From positions 124,001 to 188,000 of the forward strand of contig PHBC01000005.1 of assembly GCA_002840505.1 (NCBI GenBank): 64,000 bases of DNA, written 5' to 3'. Both the position numbers and the translations under genes were made by a program. How positions within the stretch are numbered: the stretch's first letter is position 1; the number at the start of each line of letters is the position of its first letter. Below are positions 21,058 to 34,928 of this stretch, piece by piece. The notes below the pieces were generated by a model. It saw nothing but the letters and a program-made list of their open reading frames with translations. It ran no database searches and was not told the DNA's origin. The DNA is from Deltaproteobacteria bacterium HGW-Deltaproteobacteria-2 (GTDB taxonomy: Bacteria; Desulfobacterota; Syntrophia; Syntrophales; Smithellaceae).

Positions 21058-21236
21058 TTAGCATAACGTTTTTGAGAAAAATCGTTACTGCGGTTCCTTA
21101 CAGTATCGAAGTCAAAAAGGAAGAGGTAATAACCTGTAATCAACTGAATTTGTTTGGTTAAAATTGGCACATTGAAGATGTCAAAAATCAAACAAAGTTA
21201 GAAATGGTTAATTATTATTTCGGAAAGGAGATTTCT

Positions 21237-22304
21237 ATGAGATGTAAGGTTGTATTGCTTCTGTGCATGGGGTTTGTCTTGTTTTTTATGGGTTCAGCTT
21301 CTTTGTGTCAAGTAGCATCGGCGGCAGATAGTATTAAACAAGTTAAAGATGGAAAAGCGTTGTATCTTTGTAAGATGGGTACATTGGCTCCCGAAGGGGT
21401 AGGCTGGGCCGCTTTAATCAAATCGATTATTAATCCAGGGGTATTCAAGGTTACTAATGGTCAGGTTAAATTGGATTGGTATTACGGCGGTACGATGGGC
21501 GATGACCAGGATATATTAGCCAAGATGCGCAATGGTCAATTACAGGGAGGAGGATTTACCGGACAGGGACTGGTGATGGCTTGTCCGGAAATGGCCTTGA
21601 TGGAACTCCCGTTCATGTTTGAAAATTATGATGAAGTGGAATATATTTACTCTAAGTTTAGACCACGCATTAGTCAGTGGTTTGAAAAGAGAGGATACCA
21701 CATTGTTGTGTTGGCGGAACAGGATTTTGATCAACTATACTCCACAAAAATTCCAATAAAAACTCCTGAAGATTTCAAGAAAAGCCGTATTTTAACATGG
21801 TATGGACCGCTGGAAGAGAGGACTTTAAAGGCTCTGGGGGCGAGTCCTTTGCCGATTCGCGTGCCAGAAGTAGCTGCTTCTATTCGTACAGGTGTTTGCG
21901 ATGCTTTTGTCAGCCCGGCTCTGTGGGCTGTTGGCACCCAGATGTATACGGTTATGAAATACCTTAATCCTCTTCGCATCCGATATTCGCCGGCGGCTGG
22001 CGTTATATCTTTATCGGCATGGAACCAAATACCTAAGGAAATGCAAACTGATATTGATAATTTTGCAATGTCAGTGGAGAAGGATTTCAGGCGGCAAGTC
22101 CGCGCAAGCAATGAAAAATCTCTTAAAGCCATGTATAAATATGGCATGAAAGAAGTTACAATGACGTCGGCTGAAATTGATGTTTTTAAAAAGAGACTCC
22201 TGCCGGTTTGGGATGAATTTGCCGCAAAGGGAAACTATTCTAAGACCGAGTTAGCGGAGGTTAAAGGGCTGTTAGCGGAATTTCGAAGCAAAAATAAAAA
22301 GTAA
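21237..22304 (+). CDS. TRAP transporter solute-binding protein DctP, copy 2
   Basis: 355 residues from ATG 21237, chosen over an in-frame ATG at 21204 because GGAAAGGAG lies directly upstream and the signal peptide MRCKVVLLLCMGFVLFF begins there. It aligns end to end with the preceding DctP, with most changes near the N-terminus and at scattered surface positions; the ligand region PLPIRVPEVAASIRTGVCDAF is identical. It may supply a second specificity or dosage for the same DctQM permease. Confidence 0.93.
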   Translation: MRCKVVLLLCMGFVLFFMGSASLCQVASAADSIKQVKDGKALYLCKMGTLAPEGVGWAALIKSIINPGVFKVTNGQVKLDWYYGGTMGDDQDILAKMRNGQLQGGGFTGQGLVMACPEMALMELPFMFENYDEVEYIYSKFRPRISQWFEKRGYHIVVLAEQDFDQLYSTKIPIKTPEDFKKSRILTWYGPLEERTLKALGASPLPIRVPEVAASIRTGVCDAFVSPALWAVGTQMYTVMKYLNPLRIRYSPAAGVISLSAWNQIPKEMQTDIDNFAMSVEKDFRRQVRASNEKSLKAMYKYGMKEVTMTSAEIDVFKKRLLPVWDEFAAKGNYSKTELAEVKGLLAEFRSKNKK

Positions 22305-22324
22305 GTGGTTTGTGTAAATTTATT

Positions 22325-22348
22325 GCCCTGCAGAATGAACTGCAGGGC
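22325..22348 (+). terminator. Hairpin after the second dctP gene
   Basis: Perfect inverted repeat GCCCTGCAG / CTGCAGGGC with a six-base loop. No strong T run follows. The rest of the 318-base gap before dctQ shows no gene or clear promoter. Confidence 0.45.
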
Positions 22349-22623
22349 GAAGCTATTATATATTATTTTAATATTTTTTAATTTGTATTAGGATAAATCT
22401 TTGAATAAGATATTTTTACGGTAACCCTCTTTGCCGTAGAAAAGGTGAAAAGGGCTTATTCGGTTTCGCGGCGAGCTTATCTTACGGAACAGGCTGTGAA
22501 GTTTATTGCAAGCTTTCTGTAAAATACGGATATTTTGTGTAATTATTCTAAAAGGTTACTTACAATTGGGTTGGCTGCACTTCCCTGATTGTAAAGGTAA
22601 ATACATGAAAAAAAGGAGAAGCG

Positions 22624-23154
22624 ATGTCTAGTTTATTTAACTTTTTAGAGCAGATCGATGGATTCCTTGTGCGCATAGAAAAAGGGCTGATCATTCTTGT
22701 ACTTTTTCTGTTGATTGTACTTTCTTTCGGTCAGGTGGTCGCAAGGAATGTTTTTAAAGTAGGTTACATGTGGATAGATGAGTTAACGCGCGTTATAGTG
22801 TTGTGGATGGCTTTTATAGGGGGATCGTTATGTTCAGAGTATGCCAGACACATGCGAATTGATATAATTCTTCACTTAATGAAAGGAAAGAAGAAGCGTG
22901 CCGTGGAGATTATCGGTAATGTCTTTATTATAGTGATTTGTGCGTTTCTTTTTTGGGCGTCAATTAACCACATCAAATATCAAATGGAGTCTTCCGTGCA
23001 GTTGATGTTGCAGGGAGTTCCGGATTGGATAATTAGTGTAATAATTCCTTATTTCTTTATGGTGACGATGCTGAGGGCGTTATTGCGCATAAAGAAAGAT
23101 ATCTTAGGTGAAGAGCAGATAAAACTTCCGGTTATGGGGTCGGTTGATCTTTAG
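22624..23154 (+). CDS. TRAP transporter small permease DctQ
   Basis: 176 residues with four transmembrane segments (about 17-37, 50-70, 90-112 and 133-153). The VLWMAFIGGSLCSEYARHMRID stretch (W-x-x-F-x-G-x4-x-x-x-H) is characteristic of DctQ proteins. It forms the inner-membrane Q subunit that pairs with DctM. It starts after an AAGGAG ribosome site and lies about 70 bases upstream of dctM. Confidence 0.92.
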   Translation: MSSLFNFLEQIDGFLVRIEKGLIILVLFLLIVLSFGQVVARNVFKVGYMWIDELTRVIVLWMAFIGGSLCSEYARHMRIDIILHLMKGKKKRAVEIIGNVFIIVICAFLFWASINHIKYQMESSVQLMLQGVPDWIISVIIPYFFMVTMLRALLRIKKDILGEEQIKLPVMGSVDL

Positions 23155-23227
23155 TGAAAGCTGATATATGCGTTGCAAACTAAGAAAATGCAAATGCAAA
23201 AATTACTAAAAGGGAAGGTATAAAAAA

Positions 23228-24523
23228 ATGGCTATCATTTTCGCGATCGTTATAATATTTGGAGCTATATGCGGAGCGCCGCTTTTTGCCATTGTCGGCG
23301 GTGCGTCCATGTTCATATTTAATTTTGTTTCTCATGTTGATATATCATCGAGCATAATAGAAATGTGCCGATTGGCGAATGCGCCAGGAATCATGGCCAT
23401 TCCTTTGTTTGTATTGGCCGGTTATATACTGGTTGACAGCAAGGCATCTACCCGATTGGTTAATTTATCCAACGCCTTTATAGGATGGTTGCCGGGTGGT
23501 GCTGTTATAATAACGGTTATAGCGTGTTCCTTTTTTACGGCTATGACGGGAGCAAGCGGGATAACTATTATTGCCATTGCTGCTCTGATGCTGCCGTTTC
23601 TCCTTAAGGAAGGGTACTCCGAAAGCTTTTCTATGGGGCTGGTAAGTACTACCGGAAGTATCGGACTTTTATTTGTACCCAGTTTGCCCATCATTCTCTA
23701 TGGAATGTGTTGTCAGGTTGATATCACGCAACTGTTTATTGCCGGAGCCGTTCCGGGAATTTTCTTATGCGTAATAGTATCGGTCTATGGCGGGATTTAT
23801 GCTGTGATGAATAAAATTCCGACGATTCCTTTTTCTTTCAAAAAACTTAAAAAAGCCCTTTGGGAGACTAAATGGGAGATACCTCTTCCCTTCGTAATCG
23901 TTGGAGGGATTTATGGAGGTCTTATTACAGTCGGCGAGGCAGCAACTTTAACTGCAGTATATGTAATTATTACTGAATGCTTAATATACCGTGAAATTAA
24001 ATTTGTTCGACTAATGTCAATATTTTGGGAAAGCACGATTATGACCGGAGCAATATTGTGCGTTCTTGCCGCTGCTATGGGGCTTACCAATGCCTTCGTT
24101 GATTTGCATGCTGCTGAAAATATTATGAAACTTCTTCAATCTACATTTCATGAGAAATGGACATTCCTCCTTGCTTTAAACGCATTTCTCTTAGTTGTCG
24201 GGTGTTTTCTGGAAATCTTCTCCGCAATTATCGTGATTGCTCCGCTAATAATACCCGCGGCTTTATCTTACGGGATAGATCCGGTTCACCTGGGAATTAT
24301 TTTCCTCACAAATATGGAGGTTTCCTATATGTGTCCGCCTGTGGGTTTGAATCTGCTTCTCAGCAGTTTGCGTTTTAGAGTACCGATCATGAAGCTATAT
24401 TTATTTGTTATTCCTTTTTTGATTATTATGATCGTTGCTTTACTGATTATTACTTATTATCCACAGATGTCGATGTGGTTAATAGATGCTCTGGGACAGC
24501 GCAAGGAAATAATAATGATGTAG
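23228..24523 (+). CDS. TRAP transporter large permease DctM
   Basis: 431 residues with about 12 hydrophobic segments. DctM motifs are visible, including GAPLFAIVGG near the start, the AMTGASGITI loop, the FVPSLPIILYGM loop and GCFLEIFSAIIVIAPLIIPAA. These correspond to the sodium- and substrate-coupled transport core. The C-terminus with the PPVGLNLLLSS motif is intact. It is followed by the TatT lipoprotein gene with a short gap. Confidence 0.94.
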   Translation: MAIIFAIVIIFGAICGAPLFAIVGGASMFIFNFVSHVDISSSIIEMCRLANAPGIMAIPLFVLAGYILVDSKASTRLVNLSNAFIGWLPGGAVIITVIACSFFTAMTGASGITIIAIAALMLPFLLKEGYSESFSMGLVSTTGSIGLLFVPSLPIILYGMCCQVDITQLFIAGAVPGIFLCVIVSVYGGIYAVMNKIPTIPFSFKKLKKALWETKWEIPLPFVIVGGIYGGLITVGEAATLTAVYVIITECLIYREIKFVRLMSIFWESTIMTGAILCVLAAAMGLTNAFVDLHAAENIMKLLQSTFHEKWTFLLALNAFLLVVGCFLEIFSAIIVIAPLIIPAALSYGIDPVHLGIIFLTNMEVSYMCPPVGLNLLLSSLRFRVPIMKLYLFVIPFLIIMIVALLIITYYPQMSMWLIDALGQRKEIIMM

Positions 24524-24559
24524 TTTGTTTTAACAACAATTAATTTTAAGGAGGGTATA

Positions 24560-25483
24560 ATGATAACAAAAAAAATTGGACTGCTTTTAAAGAGTATTTT
24601 ACTCCTCTGTTTAATTGCTTCGCTGTTCCTGGGTGTATCCGGATGTACGGCAACAAGGCATACGTTACAGAAAGCAGCTATTCCCATGATTGATACGTCG
24701 GTGGATGATCTTGTGGATAATCTGCTGAGGACGAAAAACGGCGCTTTTGTCAAAGATGGCCTCCCCGGAGCTCTGCTGGTAGTTACCGGTTTGACCGAAC
24801 TGGCGCCGACAAATTACAGACTGCTGGCAACGACATCCTTCCTGTATGCGGCTTTAGGCCTGTTTGTAGAGGACGAAAATAAAGATTATGCCATATCCCT
24901 GTACAAGGTCGGAACAGAATATGGTATGCGGGCCATGAAGGTCAATAATTCCAAATTTCGTAAAGCCTTGGAAGAGGGGGTTCTTGTGCCTGATGCGGCC
25001 AAATACCTGACGAAGGATGATTTGAAGGCTCTGACCTGGTACGGGATCAACCTTGCCAAGCGTGTGACGCTGCAGTTGGATACCCCGGAAGAAATTACGG
25101 ATATTCAAGACGCCGTTGCCACGGCAAAGCGCTCTGCCGAGCTTGATCCAAAGTATGCCTGGGGTGCCAACTGGGCCCTTCTTGGTATATTTTATGCTGT
25201 TGTGCCGGCATTCGGTGGCATGGGCACTGGGCCGGAGGCTTCAAAAGAAGCATTTGCTAACGGTAACAGAGCAGAACAGGGTGAATTTGGATTGATGGAT
25301 GTAATGGTGGCGAGGTATTTGTGCCCCCTCCTCAAGGATCGGGACTGGTATGACCAACTGAATAACCGGGTGCTGGAAATGGATCCCTGCAAACTGGGCG
25401 GCGGCCTATGCGTCATCAACGAGCTGGCCAAACAGAAGGCGAGGTCCAATGTAGAAAATAAAATCAAATGGATGGGTTATTAA
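24560..25483 (+). CDS. TRAP transporter-associated lipoprotein TatT (T component)
   Basis: 307 residues with a lipoprotein signal: hydrophobic core then VSGC, giving lipidated Cys29. The rest is helical and Ala/Leu-rich with TPR-like helices, including an ALGLFVEDENKDYAISLYKVGTEYG segment and the APTNYRLLATTSFLYAA motif, matching the TatT family. TatT proteins form periplasmic trimers that dock with the DctP binding protein in TPR-protein-associated TRAP systems described in Treponema. The gene closes the dctP-dctP-dctQ-dctM-tatT operon and is followed by a strong terminator. Confidence 0.85.
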   Translation: MITKKIGLLLKSILLLCLIASLFLGVSGCTATRHTLQKAAIPMIDTSVDDLVDNLLRTKNGAFVKDGLPGALLVVTGLTELAPTNYRLLATTSFLYAALGLFVEDENKDYAISLYKVGTEYGMRAMKVNNSKFRKALEEGVLVPDAAKYLTKDDLKALTWYGINLAKRVTLQLDTPEEITDIQDAVATAKRSAELDPKYAWGANWALLGIFYAVVPAFGGMGTGPEASKEAFANGNRAEQGEFGLMDVMVARYLCPLLKDRDWYDQLNNRVLEMDPCKLGGGLCVINELAKQKARSNVENKIKWMGY

Positions 25484-25505
25484 GAGCGGTTTGTTTTTAA
25501 ACATG

Positions 25506-25547
25506 CAGGTTGTTCAGGCTCTTTCGCTTGAACAACCTGTTTTATTT
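25506..25547 (+). terminator. Rho-independent terminator of the TRAP operon
   Basis: CAGGTTGTTCA (25506-25516) and TGAACAACCTG (25529-25539) form an 11-bp stem followed by TTTTATTT. It lies 23 bases after the tatT stop codon. Confidence 0.85.
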
Positions 25548-25618: not shown

Positions 25619-27802
25619 TCACACCAAAATAAAAGAAAATACGGAGATCAGGAGCATTCCCCATGCAGTTGCATTCATGCCCATTAAGGGGATTAAAATT
25701 AAACTGCCTAAAAGTGAGCCAATACATCCGCCGATGAGATCAGCCGAATATAACGGTGAAATTATTTTTTTTTGATCTGCAACTTCATAAAGGCTGGTAT
25801 AGGCAAAAATGCCGGCTACTAAAAAACCCGTTATTGTCAGAAGGCATGCAATGATGACCAAGCCGGTAGAAATATTTTCTGTTATTTGCATTTCCGTGAA
25901 TACGCACAAAATACAGAATCCAATCAGCAGAGCGATGCCATACCATTGTAAAATTATTTTATTGTTTGTCTGACGCAGCATCGCTTTGTTAATTATAAAT
26001 GCGCCCAAAGTCAAACCCGCCATGAAACTCATCAGGAGCAGTCCTATGTCCTGATAGAGCACCCCGTGTTTAACCTGATAATAAAGGATGAGAATTGTTT
26101 CCATAACCATTCCCATAAATCCTGCTGCGGAAACCAGTAGTGCACGGCGGAGCGCAAGGCGGGAACGACTTAAAAGAAAAATGACAGGCAGAATGATGCC
26201 CAGTAGCAATAAAGATGGTTTAAAAAATCTTTTATCCATAATTGAAGACAGATCAAGAAGAGCGAGGCGTGGGAAAAATTTCGACAACCAGATTATGAAG
26301 GCGTATTGATAGCAAACCGGCCTACTGTCAGTATTGGGCAAGACTTTTTCTCTCGTGAGCAAATTTCTTATTTTGAAAAACCTGTCATTTGTAAAAAGGT
26401 AATTGATATAATTTGGTGAAATTAATCTTGTTGTTATTTTCATATCCAGTAACCGGCGGGACATGATCTCCGGTGAGTGAGGCAGTGTTGCGTGCGAGGC
26501 AGTCACAACATTGATTGTCCCCGGAAGAAAAAGTACTTCTGAAAAAACGGACTGCAGAGCGTTGTAGATACTGGCGTTGCGGCTGATGAGCGGCCTTGTC
26601 CACAAGTTTTCAGCGGTGCGGAGTCTTAATCCCAGAATTCCGCCCGTATTTAATTTTGCGGAGCATTGTTCAAAAAAATCCCGCGTATAAAAACGGTTTG
26701 CCTGTCCCGATGTTGGTTCCGGCATACCAACCAGAATAAGATCGTACGAGTCGCTTTTTTTAAGATACTGCCGTGGATCGGCAAATATAATATGTATGTT
26801 TGGCTCTTTAAGCGATTTTCGGATTTCATCAGGAAGATATGGTGTTGCCATATTTAACATGACAGGATTAAGTTCTACATAATCAATCCGCCTTGGTTTG
26901 TACTTTGCTATTTCACTGACAATTCCTTCGATTCCGCCACCCAAAATCAACACATCCTGCGGGTCGTGATGCTGAAGCGCTGTTAAATGGCAAAAGTATT
27001 CTGCATCTGTTCCTTCAGTTTCAAAGGCCAGAGCGTCATTTTCAAAAACAGACATCTGATTATAAAGTTTGGTTACGGTAATTCTGCCATATGGAGAATC
27101 ATTGCTTTCCAGTAGATTCGGGTGATTCCATGTAGTCATCCGGCGATCCAGAAAAGATACATTCCCAAGCAGCGACAGAAAAATGCAAACCAGTACAATC
27201 GATGTCCAGCGTAGAAGCGATTTGTTTAATCCTTTTAAAATTATTATAGAAATTATGACTGAAATAAGAGCACAAAAGAGTGCAATAGAACAATTACGTA
27301 GTCCCCACATGATAAAAAGTGTGGAAAATAATCCGCCGATTAATCCGCCCGCACTTTCAATAGCATAAGCAACAGCCAGTGTCCTGCCTGTTGTAACGTA
27401 GATCTTTGCTGTCCACTGGAATAGAAGACCGGACAATAAACCCGCGGGGAGAACGGAAATAACGGCAACGGTTAGTTGCTGAAAAAAGGTCAGATAAGCT
27501 CCGGGTACACCGCCCAAAAGAAGACGGCTGTAACGGATGAACGCGATATCCAGTGGTATGGCGATTCCCAAAAAGATAAAAAGTATTGCAATGTGATTAA
27601 GCGATGGAGAATGAATCCGGCGTCCGATAACTGCGCCTACCGCAGTCCAGAATAGCCAGATTCCCAAAGCCAACAGGTAAATCAGTTCGACTCCGTAGAA
27701 GGAAACGTTCAGTTCCCGAAGCAGGACAACCTGTCCCAGAATGGAAACCAATCCGATGGCGACAAGAGAAATGTTCATGAGATTATCTAATTTCAGATTC
27801 AC
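25619..27802 (-). CDS. Membrane-bound spermidine synthase-like protein (MFS-like/spermidine synthase fusion)
   Basis: 727 residues. Hydrophobic segments fill about residues 10-220 and 500-727; between them lies a Rossmann methyltransferase-like domain with VLILGGGIEGIVSEIAKY and DYVELNP, the nucleotide-binding motif of spermidine synthases, then YDLILVGMPEPTSGQANRFYT where the aminopropyltransferase active site would be (the usual D-x-x-D/P acidic pattern is changed). The family is known as fused MFS/spermidine synthase; its reaction is not established. Start is GTG 27802, or ATG 27778; neither has a strong ribosome site. It overlaps the upstream Memo-AMMECR1 gene by 20 bases, so they are one transcript. 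Confidence 0.82.
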   Translation of the reverse strand: MNLKLDNLMNISLVAIGLVSILGQVVLLRELNVSFYGVELIYLLALGIWLFWTAVGAVIGRRIHSPSLNHIAILFIFLGIAIPLDIAFIRYSRLLLGGVPGAYLTFFQQLTVAVISVLPAGLLSGLLFQWTAKIYVTTGRTLAVAYAIESAGGLIGGLFSTLFIMWGLRNCSIALFCALISVIISIIILKGLNKSLLRWTSIVLVCIFLSLLGNVSFLDRRMTTWNHPNLLESNDSPYGRITVTKLYNQMSVFENDALAFETEGTDAEYFCHLTALQHHDPQDVLILGGGIEGIVSEIAKYKPRRIDYVELNPVMLNMATPYLPDEIRKSLKEPNIHIIFADPRQYLKKSDSYDLILVGMPEPTSGQANRFYTRDFFEQCSAKLNTGGILGLRLRTAENLWTRPLISRNASIYNALQSVFSEVLFLPGTINVVTASHATLPHSPEIMSRRLLDMKITTRLISPNYINYLFTNDRFFKIRNLLTREKVLPNTDSRPVCYQYAFIIWLSKFFPRLALLDLSSIMDKRFFKPSLLLLGIILPVIFLLSRSRLALRRALLVSAAGFMGMVMETILILYYQVKHGVLYQDIGLLLMSFMAGLTLGAFIINKAMLRQTNNKIILQWYGIALLIGFCILCVFTEMQITENISTGLVIIACLLTITGFLVAGIFAYTSLYEVADQKKIISPLYSADLIGGCIGSLLGSLILIPLMGMNATAWGMLLISVFSFILV

Positions 27803-29321
27803 TAAATACTATAGCTTGAAAAGTTGATAATTGGGCATCCTTCTTCCAGCATCCCTTTTCCAGCCCGGATTTCCGGCAAAGATTGTCCAGCAATTCTTCG
27901 CGATTCCATTTTTGTTCCGTTGCCACTTGAGGAAGGAAAACGGCCTGATGACCTTGTTTATTGAGTAACACACCATCCTGACCGACAACGACATCGGTGG
28001 CTACTACTATTGGTTTAATTGGTGTCAGTACAGATATTTCTATTTCGATATCGCTTAGTTCATCTGCGGTTAACGGATTAAAACGAGCATCATTAAAAGC
28101 CGCCTGAATTGCCATAGTGCCGACAATTTTGCCCAGAGGCTCATCTCCGATGATGCGACCGATACAGCCGCGAAGGTCTCCTCTTTTCTTGAGCGTCACA
28201 AAAGCGCCACGCGGCTGCTGCAAAGCCGCGCTGAAATTTCTTGCCAGAGGAACTGTGTCAGTCGAAAACAGTCTTGATATGGTTTCTCTGGCAAATGAAA
28301 GTAGCATCTTTTTATCGGATGGCGTGAGCGACGTGGATGCATCGGTTTGTGCTGCTTGAGTGAACACGTTGGTATCCTTTCCTTCTTCATCTGCAGTTAA
28401 TACAATAGCGCCATAGCCCACGACACGTGAGCGTTCGCCGACAGAAGTATCTCCTGAATTGGCATAACTGATAATTGAGCCGCGAGTGGCGCTCAGAGAT
28501 TTTGCTGCTGCCATTGCCACTATGATGGGAGCTTCTCCGCAGGCGCTGGTATACAGGTTAGGAATATTTCTATTCCTGTGAGACTGCAAAGTATTTTGAA
28601 AAACTACTGGATCAAGTCCAGCGATAGCTGAAAGAGTTTCTCTGTCCACGATGTTTGCGTCCTGGGCAGACGGATAATGCGAAAGGTCTGAACTCGCGAT
28701 AATCAATGCGTTCTTGTTTTTTAAAATCTTTGCCAGAGCCTGGCCGAAACGAATACATGTTTGAATGTCCTGTGAACCGATAACAACGGGGACAATCTTT
28801 GCTTTAGGAAAGACAACCTGAATAAAAGGCACCATGACTTCGACGGAATGCTCAGATTCATGGAGTGTTTTATCCAGCATGCAATCGGCCGGATCCGCCT
28901 TCTTCAACAAATGGATAATATTCTTTTCTATCTGTGCCGTGCCCAGAGGAGTGCGAAAACCATTCCCAGGGTAAAGCGATATTTTCTCCATATCTGAGCT
29001 CGTATGCTTTGTTCCCAGGATGACGATAAAATCGTATTTCTGATTGGCCGCTTGCTTGAACCCGTCGGCGCAAATCTGACCGGAGTATATGTATCCGGCA
29101 TGGGGAACAATTATGGCAACAGGTTTTTTGATTTTGACAGGCAGAGCATCCTGAAGAAATTTTTCGACAGCAAGTTTCAGTTTGGCCGCTGATTCAGGAT
29201 AGAACTTTCCTGCGACAGCCGGTTCGCGAACATCTGAGTCCGAAACTTTATTCGCCTGGCAGGCCACGGCAAAACAAAAAATGATGACCAGCAGCACAAG
29301 GCTTAGTCGTAATATTTTCAT
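27783..29321 (-). CDS. AmmeMemoRadiSam system protein, Memo (B) fused to AMMECR1 (A), predicted lipoprotein
   Basis: 512 residues from ATG 29321, chosen because it gives an AGAGG ribosome site and an N-terminal signal ending AVAC, with Cys21 as likely lipid anchor. Residues 30-310 form the Memo domain (EPAVAGKFYPESAAKL, VPHAGYIYSG, DLSHY motifs; it resembles an extradiol dioxygenase fold). Residues 340-512 form the AMMECR1 domain with the hallmark LRGCIGRI. The two proteins are separate genes or a fusion in many genomes and co-occur with a radical SAM enzyme, as here. The function of the system is unknown. A signal sequence would place it outside the cytoplasmic membrane. Confidence 0.85.
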   Translation of the reverse strand: MKILRLSLVLLVIIFCFAVACQANKVSDSDVREPAVAGKFYPESAAKLKLAVEKFLQDALPVKIKKPVAIIVPHAGYIYSGQICADGFKQAANQKYDFIVILGTKHTSSDMEKISLYPGNGFRTPLGTAQIEKNIIHLLKKADPADCMLDKTLHESEHSVEVMVPFIQVVFPKAKIVPVVIGSQDIQTCIRFGQALAKILKNKNALIIASSDLSHYPSAQDANIVDRETLSAIAGLDPVVFQNTLQSHRNRNIPNLYTSACGEAPIIVAMAAAKSLSATRGSIISYANSGDTSVGERSRVVGYGAIVLTADEEGKDTNVFTQAAQTDASTSLTPSDKKMLLSFARETISRLFSTDTVPLARNFSAALQQPRGAFVTLKKRGDLRGCIGRIIGDEPLGKIVGTMAIQAAFNDARFNPLTADELSDIEIEISVLTPIKPIVVATDVVVGQDGVLLNKQGHQAVFLPQVATEQKWNREELLDNLCRKSGLEKGCWKKDAQLSTFQAIVFSESEIR

Positions 29322-29338
29322 TTTTTTATAACCTCTTT

Positions 29339-30529
29339 TTATGTCCACACACCGGCAATCTTTCGTTTGCAGAATTTGCAACAACCGTCCTTTATGTTCA
29401 TTTCTGTAACAAAAAATCCATGTCGCTTTACTACAGCCTTTTTACAGTTCGGGCAGTAAGTGTGATTTCCCGGATGATCCGGCACATTGCCCACATACGG
29501 ATAATGCATCCCTTTGCTCACGGCCATGTTATAGGCGCGCTCCAGTGTGGTAACAGGTGTGGGAGGGAGATTAAGCAACTGGTAATCGGGATGAAAGCGA
29601 GAGAAGTGAACGGGCACATCGGGGCCGACTTCTCCCAGTATCCAGTCGATAAGTCCCTGTAGCATTTTGTCGGAATCATTCAATGTGGGGACAACCAGAT
29701 TGACAATTTCCAGATGAACACGACTTTTTGCTATCTGTTTGATGCTTCTGAGCACTGGTCGCAATTCCGCCCTGCATACAGTGCGATAGAAATCCTCGCT
29801 GTAGCCTTTCAGATCAATCTTAATAGCATCCAGTGTTTTGCACATTTCCGCAAGAGGTGCCTCGTTCATGAATCCGCAACTTATCATTACACAACGAAGG
29901 CCCTGCTTTTTCGCGTCACGCGCAATGTCGGTGAGATATTCCGTAAAAACAGTTGGTTCATTATAAGTAAAAGCAATGACGGGCGACTTGTTGGCACGTG
30001 CGGCATCGATTATCCTGACAGGCGGCGTAAAAGAAACCTGATGATCTTCGGGTGATGATTGAGAGATTTCCCAGTTTTGACAGAATTTGCAGCTAAGCGG
30101 ACATCCGGCGGTGGCCAGAGAAAATGCTGCAACTCCCGGCAGGTAATTATAAAAAGGTTTTTTCTCTATCGGATCGATGTGAATAGATACGGGACGGCCA
30201 TAGACAAGGCTCTTCAACTCTCCATTGACGTTCATGCGGGTCCGGCAACGTCCGCGTTGACCGTTAACAATAGCACAGCCATTGGCGCAAAGAAGACATC
30301 TGACAATGGTTTCTTCTTTCGGGCCGCCTTTAAATGTGAGCGGCTTCCAGTAACGGGCCCGGGGAGCTGATCGAATAAGGTCCTCTGAATAAGTGTCTGC
30401 GAAAGCGATGCCTGAATCGTTGCCCAACAAATATTTCTGCCACGAGGGATCGCACAGAATCATTCCCGTGCCACCAACGGTTGTGGCAAGTCTGGTAAGT
30501 GTTACTAAAAAATCACGTCTTGAAAGCAT
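29339..30529 (-). CDS. AmmeMemoRadiSam system radical SAM enzyme with twin-arginine signal
   Basis: 396 residues from ATG 30529, preceded by AAGGAC; an upstream ATG at 30607 would add 26 residues. The N-terminus MLSRRDFLVTLTRLATTVGG has the Tat motif SRRDFL, followed by a hydrophobic stretch. The radical SAM cluster motif is CPLSCKFC (Cys143, 147, 150). Four additional N-terminal cysteines (78, 81, 85, 95) and a C-terminal CPNC ... CCKFC zinc-ribbon-like group are present. It resembles pyruvate formate-lyase activating enzymes in overall fold. It lies 17 bases upstream of the Memo-AMMECR1 gene. Substrate unknown. Confidence 0.87.
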   Translation of the reverse strand: MLSRRDFLVTLTRLATTVGGTGMILCDPSWQKYLLGNDSGIAFADTYSEDLIRSAPRARYWKPLTFKGGPKEETIVRCLLCANGCAIVNGQRGRCRTRMNVNGELKSLVYGRPVSIHIDPIEKKPFYNYLPGVAAFSLATAGCPLSCKFCQNWEISQSSPEDHQVSFTPPVRIIDAARANKSPVIAFTYNEPTVFTEYLTDIARDAKKQGLRCVMISCGFMNEAPLAEMCKTLDAIKIDLKGYSEDFYRTVCRAELRPVLRSIKQIAKSRVHLEIVNLVVPTLNDSDKMLQGLIDWILGEVGPDVPVHFSRFHPDYQLLNLPPTPVTTLERAYNMAVSKGMHYPYVGNVPDHPGNHTYCPNCKKAVVKRHGFFVTEMNIKDGCCKFCKRKIAGVWT

Positions 30530-30735
30530 GGCGTCCTTAAGAAATTTATCCAGGTAGATGATTGTTACACAATATTTGTATAATGGAATTATAGGAGAAA
30601 TAAGCATGCCAAGTCAATGGGCAATAGGTGTGGCTGGTTTTAATTGACATACAATCGTTGTTTTCTTATACTCTTTAATAAAAGCAAATTATTATCGATT
30701 AAAGAATATTTAACCGGTTTATTCTGGAGGATATA

Positions 30736-33068: not shown

Positions 33069-34928
33069 ATGTGGAAATATAAAGTAGTTCCTCCGGCGGA
33101 AGTCCTTTCTAAAATCGAACCGGGCATGGTTATTTTCCTCGGTACGGGCATGGCGGAACCGCGAATGCTGGTTAAACATCTTATGGCGTCGCACGAACCT
33201 AATCTGCAGGATTTAGAATTAATTCAATTGGTGAGTCTCGGAGATGCAATACCCATTGATGAAAGGTATTCGCGTAAATTCCGGTTGAAGACATTTTTTT
33301 CCGGCTGGATTGCTTCCGAGGCTATCAGCGCGGGTAGAGTGGATCTTATACCAAGCAGATTTTCACGAATACCCGGACTATTAAAATCGGGAGCCATCCC
33401 CATCGACGCGGCCTTCTTTCAGATTTCACCACCGGATGAAAACGGATACGCTTGTTTGCTGGGAGTGGACGTAGAAAGGCAGGCCATGGAATCTGCTCAT
33501 CTTGTTGTCGGTGAAGTAAATGCTCGCGCTCCCCGCATTATGGGAGATACCCTGGTTCATATGGATGAATTCGATTATTTTATCGAATCAACAGAGTATC
33601 CCATTTACATTCCCCGCTGGCCCGTGGCGGATATTTTTCTGAAAATAGCCGCGAATATAGCGACAATAGTTGAAGATGGAAGTTGTATAGCTCTCGGCAT
33701 CGGGCCGCTCTATGAAGCCCTGGCCGTTCAATTGGCTACAAAAAAAAATCTGGGGATTCACTCTCCTTTTTTCACTGATGCCTTGATGGATCTCGTAAAG
33801 AGCGGCGCTGTGACTAATCGCTATAAAGGCATTTTCCGCGGTAAAAGCTCCGCGTCTTATTTAATGGGTAGCGAAGAATTAATGAAGTGGCTGGATAGAA
33901 ACCCACTTGTCGAATTTCAGCCCGAAGATGTTATTATGGATCCGAAAGTGATCGGAACTAATGACAAGATGATAGCTATTCTTCCAGCAAGAAAGATTGA
34001 TCTGACGGGAAATGTCGCTTTGCATACCGGTAAGGGAAATATGAATGCCGGGCCGGGGAATGTACAGGAACTGTTGATGGGAGCTGGACTGTCGAAAAAA
34101 GGCCGGACAATATTTGGCCTTCCCAGCCGTAACCTTAAAGGCATGCCCAATATTGTCCTGTCTGTTGATAATATGCCTTTTCAGTTTACCAATCGAGAAT
34201 CCATGGATATGGTCGTGACAGAATATGGAGTGGCTTCTCTCATGGGCAAAACGATGCGGGAACGTGCGCTGGAATTAATTGACATTGCACATCCCGATGA
34301 TCGGGCTGAACTCGTCAGACAGGCTAAAGAGGCAAAATTGATTTATGCCGACCAGATTTATATTGAAGAATCAGGGTCACTGTATCCCGCTAAATTATGC
34401 ACTTTCCATGAATTTAAAGGTGGCCTGAAGGTTTGCTTCCGGCCAATCAAACCTTCTGATGAAGATAAAATGCGTCTTTTGTTCTATCGATTCTCAGATC
34501 AGTCAGTCTATTACCGGTACTTCACTTCCGTAAAGACAATGCCCCATAAAAAGATGCAGGAATATGTTAGTGTGAATTACCGCTTGAGCATGTCTATTGT
34601 AGGCACTATCGAGGTGGCCGGTACCGAAAAAATAATTGCCGAAGCGCGCTACGTTCGCACGAAACCGGATGCCTTTGCCGACACGGCATTTATTGTTGAC
34701 GAAGAGTATCAAGGCAAGGGCATTGCTTCTTATCTTTTTGAATTATTGATTCGTGTGGCTCGCGAGGAGGGTATCCGGGGATTTACTGCCGATGTTCTGG
34801 CTTCCAATAAAGCGATGTTGAAGGTGTATGAAAAATCGCCATTTCCTGTCCAGACCGTCTTGACAACTGGAATCTATGAATTAACCATACCTTTTACTTC
34901 TTCGTCGGAATTGAAGGAAAAGAATTAA
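33069..34928 (+). CDS. Acetyl-CoA hydrolase/CoA-transferase fused to GNAT acetyltransferase
   Basis: 619 residues. Residues 1-440 form the two-domain CoA-transferase of the 4-hydroxybutyrate CoA-transferase/acetyl-CoA hydrolase family, with a GIGPLYEALA segment and the VTEYGVASLMGKTMRERALELIDIAHPD block near the end. Residues about 455-610 form a GNAT domain with the acetyl-CoA motif region VDEEYQGKGIASYLFELL. The fusion is known in Desulfobacterota genomes. The first half should move CoA between acyl-CoA and acetate-like acids; the GNAT half may acetylate a protein lysine, an inference. It converges with the SDR gene, with 15 bases between stops. Confidence 0.88.
   Translation: MWKYKVVPPAEVLSKIEPGMVIFLGTGMAEPRMLVKHLMASHEPNLQDLELIQLVSLGDAIPIDERYSRKFRLKTFFSGWIASEAISAGRVDLIPSRFSRIPGLLKSGAIPIDAAFFQISPPDENGYACLLGVDVERQAMESAHLVVGEVNARAPRIMGDTLVHMDEFDYFIESTEYPIYIPRWPVADIFLKIAANIATIVEDGSCIALGIGPLYEALAVQLATKKNLGIHSPFFTDALMDLVKSGAVTNRYKGIFRGKSSASYLMGSEELMKWLDRNPLVEFQPEDVIMDPKVIGTNDKMIAILPARKIDLTGNVALHTGKGNMNAGPGNVQELLMGAGLSKKGRTIFGLPSRNLKGMPNIVLSVDNMPFQFTNRESMDMVVTEYGVASLMGKTMRERALELIDIAHPDDRAELVRQAKEAKLIYADQIYIEESGSLYPAKLCTFHEFKGGLKVCFRPIKPSDEDKMRLLFYRFSDQSVYYRYFTSVKTMPHKKMQEYVSVNYRLSMSIVGTIEVAGTEKIIAEARYVRTKPDAFADTAFIVDEEYQGKGIASYLFELLIRVAREEGIRGFTADVLASNKAMLKVYEKSPFPVQTVLTTGIYELTIPFTSSSELKEKN

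Follow-up and report, generated by a model that had tools for sequence, protein, structure and literature searches.

The window, a 64,000-nucleotide stretch of the genome of Deltaproteobacteria bacterium HGW-Deltaproteobacteria-2, carries on its minus strand, between positions 25619 and 30529, three open reading frames (ORFs). They encode a radical S-adenosylmethionine (SAM) protein, a fusion of Memo with AMMECR1 and a membrane protein that contains a spermidine-synthase-like domain. Judged by its nearest relatives, the host stands close to Smithella. Their place and strand in the ORF list are as an earlier note on this DNA had given them. We consider it probable that they encode a second AmmeMemoRadiSam system, exported and paralogous to a signal-less set, in which the radical SAM enzyme would receive its cluster inside the cell, leave through the twin-arginine translocation (Tat) pathway and act jointly with its partners on an envelope substrate. 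The extracytoplasmic location is the firmer part of this proposal and, in our judgement, very probable; catalysis outside the cytoplasm is likely. The same conserved association in Memo-AMMECR1-radical SAM contexts was reportedly described by Burroughs and colleagues in 2019, a work that PMC7159879 cites.

All three families of the AmmeMemoRadiSam system are represented above their curated NCBIfam cut-offs by adjacent genes. The radical SAM protein matched TIGR04337 with 362.6 bits (cut-off 220), the Memo part TIGR04336 with 249.7 bits (cut-off 26) and the AMMECR1 part TIGR04335 with 181.1 bits (cut-off 99); PF04055 was likewise above its cut-off in the radical SAM protein. When the locus was compared with defence-system models, viperin (2.3e-8) and mad2 (8e-11) were the only matches. 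The radical SAM gene had been described as opening with a twin-arginine motif and a hydrophobic stretch. Indeed, SRRDFL stands directly after the likely start ATG 30529, which is preceded by a ribosome-binding-like AAGGA, and an AxA-type site (IAFA/DT) lies ~40 residues beyond the motif. Twin arginine, hydrophobic stretch and AxA site would together fit a Tat substrate, and TatC is encoded in the genome (224 bits, cut-off 132.7).

The signal was followed among relatives of the radical SAM protein. Of 576 found, the best 80 were taken, and 78 of these had a complete N-terminus. A twin-arginine motif was found in 73, Lys-Arg in three and another hydrophobic N-terminus in two (L101 and L109, both without RR or KR and strongly hydrophobic, 2.62 and 2.46). 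In an alignment of 49 rows (the window protein, whose row begins one residue late at 30526 instead of 30529, which was judged harmless, and 48 relatives), the two leader arginines were present in 47/49 and 49/49 rows and were the sole columns with at least 90% conservation in the first 64 reference residues, followed by F15 (42/49), P63 (41/49) and L16 (40/49). A chance motif or a wrongly chosen start was rejected on the conservation of the twin arginine among the relatives and in this alignment. For comparison, another 51 family members served as the control set, 31 from Syntrophales and 20 from other carriers' genomes. Neither a twin-arginine or Lys-Arg motif (0/51) nor CxxCH (0/51) was seen in them, and their median N-terminal hydropathy was -0.31 against 1.54 on the exported side; these copies had been chosen for being matches of low identity or second matches, mostly with short frames, and the contrast was not blind. 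A hydrophobic stretch upstream in frame was present in L134 alone. In a phylum-wide draw, 271 of 297 genomes had a match at E 1e-80, exported and signal-less forms together, and the 30 best loci fetched from it carried RR (24) or KR (6), by a looser pattern and with six loci repeating known ones.

The earlier note held that a lack of signals in most homologues would speak against export. Within the subfamily the opposite was found, with RR or KR signals in 76 of the 78 proteins and hydrophobic N-termini in the rest. Because the wider TIGR04337 also has a signal-less branch, export appears to be a trait of a subfamily and not of the whole family.

The Memo-AMMECR1 fusion opens with a lipoprotein-type signal ending in AVAC, as had been noted (MKILRL...FAVAC, after ATG 29321). 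Memo was matched at 65 loci, and a hydrophobic segment preceded the Memo domain in all 59 relatives measured (lowest value 1.49). A lipobox-like motif was present in 15 of 60 Memo proteins and is hence not general. In the window domain a His, a His and a Cys align with what we take to be H49, H81 and C244 of MEMO1. The metal ligands of MEMO1 (PMC11081632) are kept in the window domain. That some Memo N-termini resemble uncleaved anchors, and that the radical SAM proteins L101 and L109 have a hydrophobic N-terminus only, could mean that the N-terminal segments do no more than anchor the proteins in the membrane, with the catalytic parts on the cytoplasmic face. We regard this as improbable, as the two arginines are the best conserved leader residues, lipobox-like motifs do occur among the Memo proteins, the partner's domain is predicted to face outward, and CxxCH, if a haem site, would be filled outside the cytoplasm.

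This CxxCH motif was found between signal and core in 43 of the 78 relatives, 22-25 residues ahead of the first core Cys and at exactly 24 in 33 of them. A further His precedes the core in 43/43 carriers, exactly 7 residues ahead in 39, and downstream of the core start only two CxxCH occurred in all 78 proteins together. Haem attachment at CxxCH happens outside the cytoplasm; if the motif is a haem site, it would thus be separate evidence for export. PF01578 was matched in all 43 carrier genomes, compared with 5 of 7 non-carriers searched alongside. ResB was found at 1e-20 or better in 27/43 carrier genomes, and 12 more have a PF01578 frame of more than 600 residues. Four carriers (G056, G058, G075 and G082) have neither, which, together with the binding of zinc by CCHH, leaves room for CxxCH...H being a zinc or Fe-S (iron-sulfur) site instead of a c-type haem. 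Among three CxxCH proteins scanned, moreover, no Pfam cytochrome model was above its cut-off, and one NrfB-like match had E 0.085. On the other side stand the maturation genes just listed, the absence of the motif from 51/51 other copies and the His right after the second Cys in 43/43, though the last was set by the search pattern. A zinc or Fe-S site is possible but rather unlikely; it concerns this single point and is compatible with the other readings. Five changes of CxxCH are needed on the tree, and we read its history as a single gain, at a node with a support of 99, followed by four losses, though other histories are possible. On this reading the window clade, which appears to have lost the motif, accounts for one of the losses. 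A clean joint loss of CxxCH and cytochrome c maturation was not found: in the window genus ResB was kept in 11/15 and absent in 4/15. L060 (Syntrophaceae) has no CxxCH either, but SHEH is retained close to where the second His would be, which fits a secondary loss. In G029:C141 a CxxCH radical SAM gene lies ~15 kb from a partial ResB gene on the same contig.

Conservation of the operon was examined at 54 testable loci, each with at least 5 kb downstream. Memo and AMMECR1 were present in 45 and the membrane gene in 43 (39 on the same strand), and all three genes lay downstream, on the same strand and within set distances, in 36/54. The spermidine-synthase-like neighbour, whose occurrence in homologous operons the earlier note had wished to see surveyed, is therefore conserved (43/54). 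No fourth conserved gene was seen among 958 ORFs of loci L031-L110, where the next cluster reaches 8 loci; one ORF cluster of 12 loci was taken as a putative shadow ORF over the same region. At five loci from Aminicenantes and Acidobacteriota (L093, L095, L098, L102, L107) an exported radical SAM protein and the membrane partner occur with no Memo-AMMECR1 match in the stretch covered. At five others (L096, L097, L100, L104, L105; Acidobacteriota) the membrane partner adjoins the set on the opposite strand.

The product of the third ORF is a membrane protein, 727 residues long, in which a Spermine_synth (PF01564) domain was recognised; this bears out its description in the earlier note. The AlphaFold2 (AF2) model has a mean pLDDT of 90.8, and its domain folds like spermidine synthase (Thermus SpeE 1uir_A, target TM 0.76). 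The top 50 Foldseek matches were aminopropyltransferases throughout. In a second structural comparison of the predicted model, the membrane halves matched folds of the major facilitator superfamily (MFS): SV2A (9okg, Z 27.9 over 334 residues), FLVCR2 (Z 24.3) and NorC (Z 22.9). None of 42 members matched an MFS Pfam family at E 0.001; only PF01564, MTS and Methyltransf_PK were found. For the topology, 42 of 52 full-length partners were aligned with near-copies omitted, and helix limits were set by hand on mean hydropathy. By the positive-inside rule, Lys and Arg counts place the domain outside in 42/42 of these proteins, the counts for the window protein being 13 and 2. The seven helices ahead of the domain in the AF2 model agree with this.

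The PF01564 match, the SpeE fold and the fact that no other PF01564 protein was found in this genome are what would be expected of a membrane spermidine synthase, with the operon belonging to polyamine metabolism. The active-site residues argue otherwise. GGGIEG and VGMPEP of the window protein occupy, in an ungapped part of the alignment, the places of GGGEGA and IDLTDP in Thermus SpeE. At the position for decarboxylated SAM (dcSAM), where SpeE has Glu, the window protein has Ile291, and an acidic residue occurs there in 0/42, though the neighbouring Glu292 (29/42) might stand in. The catalytic Asp is replaced by Gly359, with Asp in 2/42. Spermidine synthase models scored far below their cut-offs (117.2 bits against 472, 94.3 against 260), and AdoMet decarboxylase PF02675, the one decarboxylase family searched, was found in 0/21 genomes, this one and 20 relatives, compared with 8/14 in the control. 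With these residues missing and PF02675 not found, spermidine synthase activity was rejected, and the polyamine explanation is very improbable. Glu310 is kept in 42/42 partners. Since the SpeE residues are missing, the protein resembles the fungal methyltransferase NHMT discussed below and PF02675 was not found in the 21 genomes, the ligand of the domain is likelier SAM or a SAM product. As a separate observation, the SpeD/SpeE spermidine route may be absent from this genome, G000.

The same genome encodes a signal-less set: a 345-residue radical SAM protein without a signal (G000:C3) and separate Memo (273 residues) and AMMECR1 (182 residues) genes (G000:C6). By hand count, 33 of 37 carrier genomes have at least two TIGR04337 matches above the cut-off, the exceptions being G070, G077, G079 and G088. 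Two trees were built, with 110 and 120 rows, and in both the exported proteins all fell on one side of one branch. At 28 of the 31 Syntrophales loci, all except L118, L119 and L128, the signal-less radical SAM gene has a class-I methyltransferase gene as its neighbour, as it does in 3 of the 20 short stretches taken from other carriers. With a methyltransferase beside the signal-less set and the outward domain beside the exported one, the enzyme would be paired with a SAM-binding fold in both compartments, and we infer that the class-I methyltransferase is replaced by the outward domain in the exported set. The pair of signal-less radical SAM and class-I methyltransferase genes at L112:4252-6075 (G000:C3) may offer a clue to what the cytoplasmic system does.

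In the mechanism we propose, the radical SAM enzyme would acquire its Fe-S cluster during assembly in the cytoplasm and then leave through Tat in folded form. Memo-AMMECR1 would be outside as well, as a lipoprotein here and by a signal anchor or cleavable signal elsewhere; the MFS-type protein would hold its domain for a SAM-type ligand on the outer face, and the radical SAM and Memo reaction would take place on an envelope substrate. In many relatives, not in the window clade, a single c-type haem between signal and core might feed in electrons. The sequences as such show which parts are present and how far they are conserved, as well as the signal motifs, the operon structure and the missing spermidine-synthase residues; from these we infer export, the outer-face topology and the haem. 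A fuller version is put forward tentatively, in which radical SAM catalysis is periplasmic, the MFS protein moves SAM in (or the product out), haem provides the electron in many lineages and Memo-AMMECR1 works alongside on an envelope substrate. Here, supply or sensing of SAM by the membrane protein, an envelope molecule as substrate and electron input through haem are conjecture. As for the export interpretation of the earlier note, the subfamily signals, the conserved membrane neighbour and the predicted outward domain support it in part; spermidine-synthase activity was not supported.

Several points weigh against the proposal. Taking the best 80 relatives favours exported forms, and the trees are quick searches with a single support value and, for one, a long-branch warning. 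At 14/54 loci, including that of Desulfonema magnum (L067), Memo, the membrane gene or both are missing within the set distances. The window signal itself has a low hydrophobicity (mean 1.11 over 17 residues) and contains an Arg, the window protein has no CxxCH between signal and core, so that its electron source is unexplained, and periplasmic SAM is not established. The enzyme might instead do its work while still inside the cell, perhaps on a co-exported protein, with the outside as its final store, or the exported form might be a redox protein without radical SAM chemistry. We know of no SAM source outside the cytoplasm, which counts for this alternative, as does the apparent loss of CxxCH in the window clade. 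The cofactors of many Tat substrates are inserted in the cytoplasm (PMC10924467). Yet the three cluster Cys and Glu-Pro are kept in 49/49 aligned proteins, the Memo signals and the outward partner domain put the partners outside too, and the genome already has a separate signal-less set. The Glu-Pro pair is presumably the counterpart of the SAM-binding GGE motif. Action before export, or a mere redox role, is rather unlikely.

If the periplasmic reading is true, we know of no earlier radical SAM pathway operating outside the cytoplasm, and this one would imply a bacterial route of SAM into the periplasm. No report of a radical SAM enzyme working outside the cytoplasm was found in the literature covered, preprints and most subscription journals lying outside that scope. 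The stationary-phase extracellular proteins of Rhizobium etli include one with a Radical SAM domain, for which no twin arginine is claimed (PMC2964644). A radical SAM enzyme in this place raises the questions of the SAM source and the electron source, for which the MFS partner and the CxxCH motif, respectively, suggest possible answers. Memo and AMMECR1 are proteins of unknown chemistry whose relatives occur in organisms as far apart as archaea and humans. Because this copy is specific to one compartment and is repeatedly found with a membrane partner, fewer substrates need to be considered.

The features of the locus are collected in the table. The ORFs extend from 30607 to 29339 (radical SAM), 29384 to 27783 (Memo-AMMECR1) and 27802 to 25619 (membrane protein). 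In most homologues the start of the membrane gene, as chosen by script, is at or near the equivalent of ATG 27778, 4 bases past the preceding stop; the 20-base overlap reported for the third gene needs GTG 27802 and is not secure. The set is flanked by a divergent CoA-ligase-like gene and a convergent T-component gene of a tripartite ATP-independent periplasmic (TRAP) transporter. Promoter-like sites across the region (11) were not in excess of shuffled sequences (11.4), and terminator-like repeats numbered 7 against 5.7 in shuffles. At 21204-25483, DctP, DctQ and DctM (TRAP transporter) are followed by a TAtT T-component gene, and at 33069-34928 an acetyl-CoA hydrolase/transferase and a GNAT acetyltransferase domain are joined in one ORF.

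Table. Features of the locus of the predicted exported AmmeMemoRadiSam system (window coordinates).
Feature	Position	Strand	Remarks
AmmeMemoRadiSam radical SAM enzyme, Tat-type signal	29339..30529	-	TIGR04337, PF04055; ATG 30529 preferred over 30607
Predicted twin-arginine signal MLSRRDFL...GIAFA, possible cleavage A/D	30398..30529	-	motif 30506-30529; IAFADT 30392-30409
Linker between signal and core	30299..30397	-	no CxxCH in window protein, present in many homologues
CPLSCKFC, CxxxCxxC ligands of radical SAM 4Fe-4S cluster	30080..30103	-	Cys in 49/49
Memo-AMMECR1 fusion, lipoprotein-type signal	27783..29321	-	TIGR04336, TIGR04335; ATG 29321 preferred over TTG 29384
Signal MKILRLSLVLLVIIFCFAVAC	29259..29321	-	lipobox-like AVAC at 29259-29270
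Memo domain	28401..29228	-	
AMMECR1 domain	27804..28307	-	TIGR04335 residues 360-527
MFS-fold membrane protein, inserted spermidine-synthase/methyltransferase-fold domain	25619..27778	-	ATG 27778 preferred over GTG 27802
Seven N-terminal membrane helices	27164..27799	-	AF2 helices within 2-213 (727-residue numbering)
Spermidine-synthase-fold domain, predicted outward-facing	26282..27115	-	
C-terminal membrane helices, six in model, last one long	25628..26233	-	AF2 helices within 524-725
Promoter-like TTGACT-18-TATAAT (11/12), upstream of operon	30588..30617	-	
15-pair inverted repeat, terminator-like, between convergent TRAP T-component gene and operon	25505..25540	no strand	

Among known proteins, the fungal NHMT offers a parallel in description to the membrane partner. 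It is a seven-transmembrane methyltransferase that methylates secretory proteins in the endoplasmic reticulum (PMC10349129). Like the window protein, it has seven transmembrane helices ahead of a spermidine-synthase-like domain, and in its GxG(D/E)G motif Ile stands at the position of the acidic residue. The source also gives a conserved SAM-binding Glu, which in our reading may correspond to window Glu310. Unlike the window protein, NHMT has no helices past the domain, and its transmembrane sequence is reported there as fungi-only; the likeness drawn here is by description. Fused MFS/spermidine synthases (NF037959) combine the same MFS helices with a spermidine-synthase domain, and the window protein scores 21.2 bits against their cut-off of 40. 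The match with SV2A spans both membrane halves, but at 12% identity; SV2A has a luminal domain between its seventh and eighth transmembrane helices and no enzyme domain. For the radical SAM core, that of L067 being compared, the closest solved fold is pyruvate formate-lyase activating enzyme (3cb8, target TM 0.81, E 4.1e-15), yet with 18% identity. This enzyme acts on a protein glycine and has no signal and no extra Cys motifs at its ends; since the core fold is closest to it, a peptide-like substrate may be suspected. A close relative of the window set as a whole is the signal-less AmmeMemoRadiSam set. It draws on the same three families (TIGR04337, TIGR04336 and TIGR04335), whereas it has no signals, its Memo and AMMECR1 are unfused, and its radical SAM gene usually has a class-I methyltransferase gene as neighbour instead of the membrane protein.

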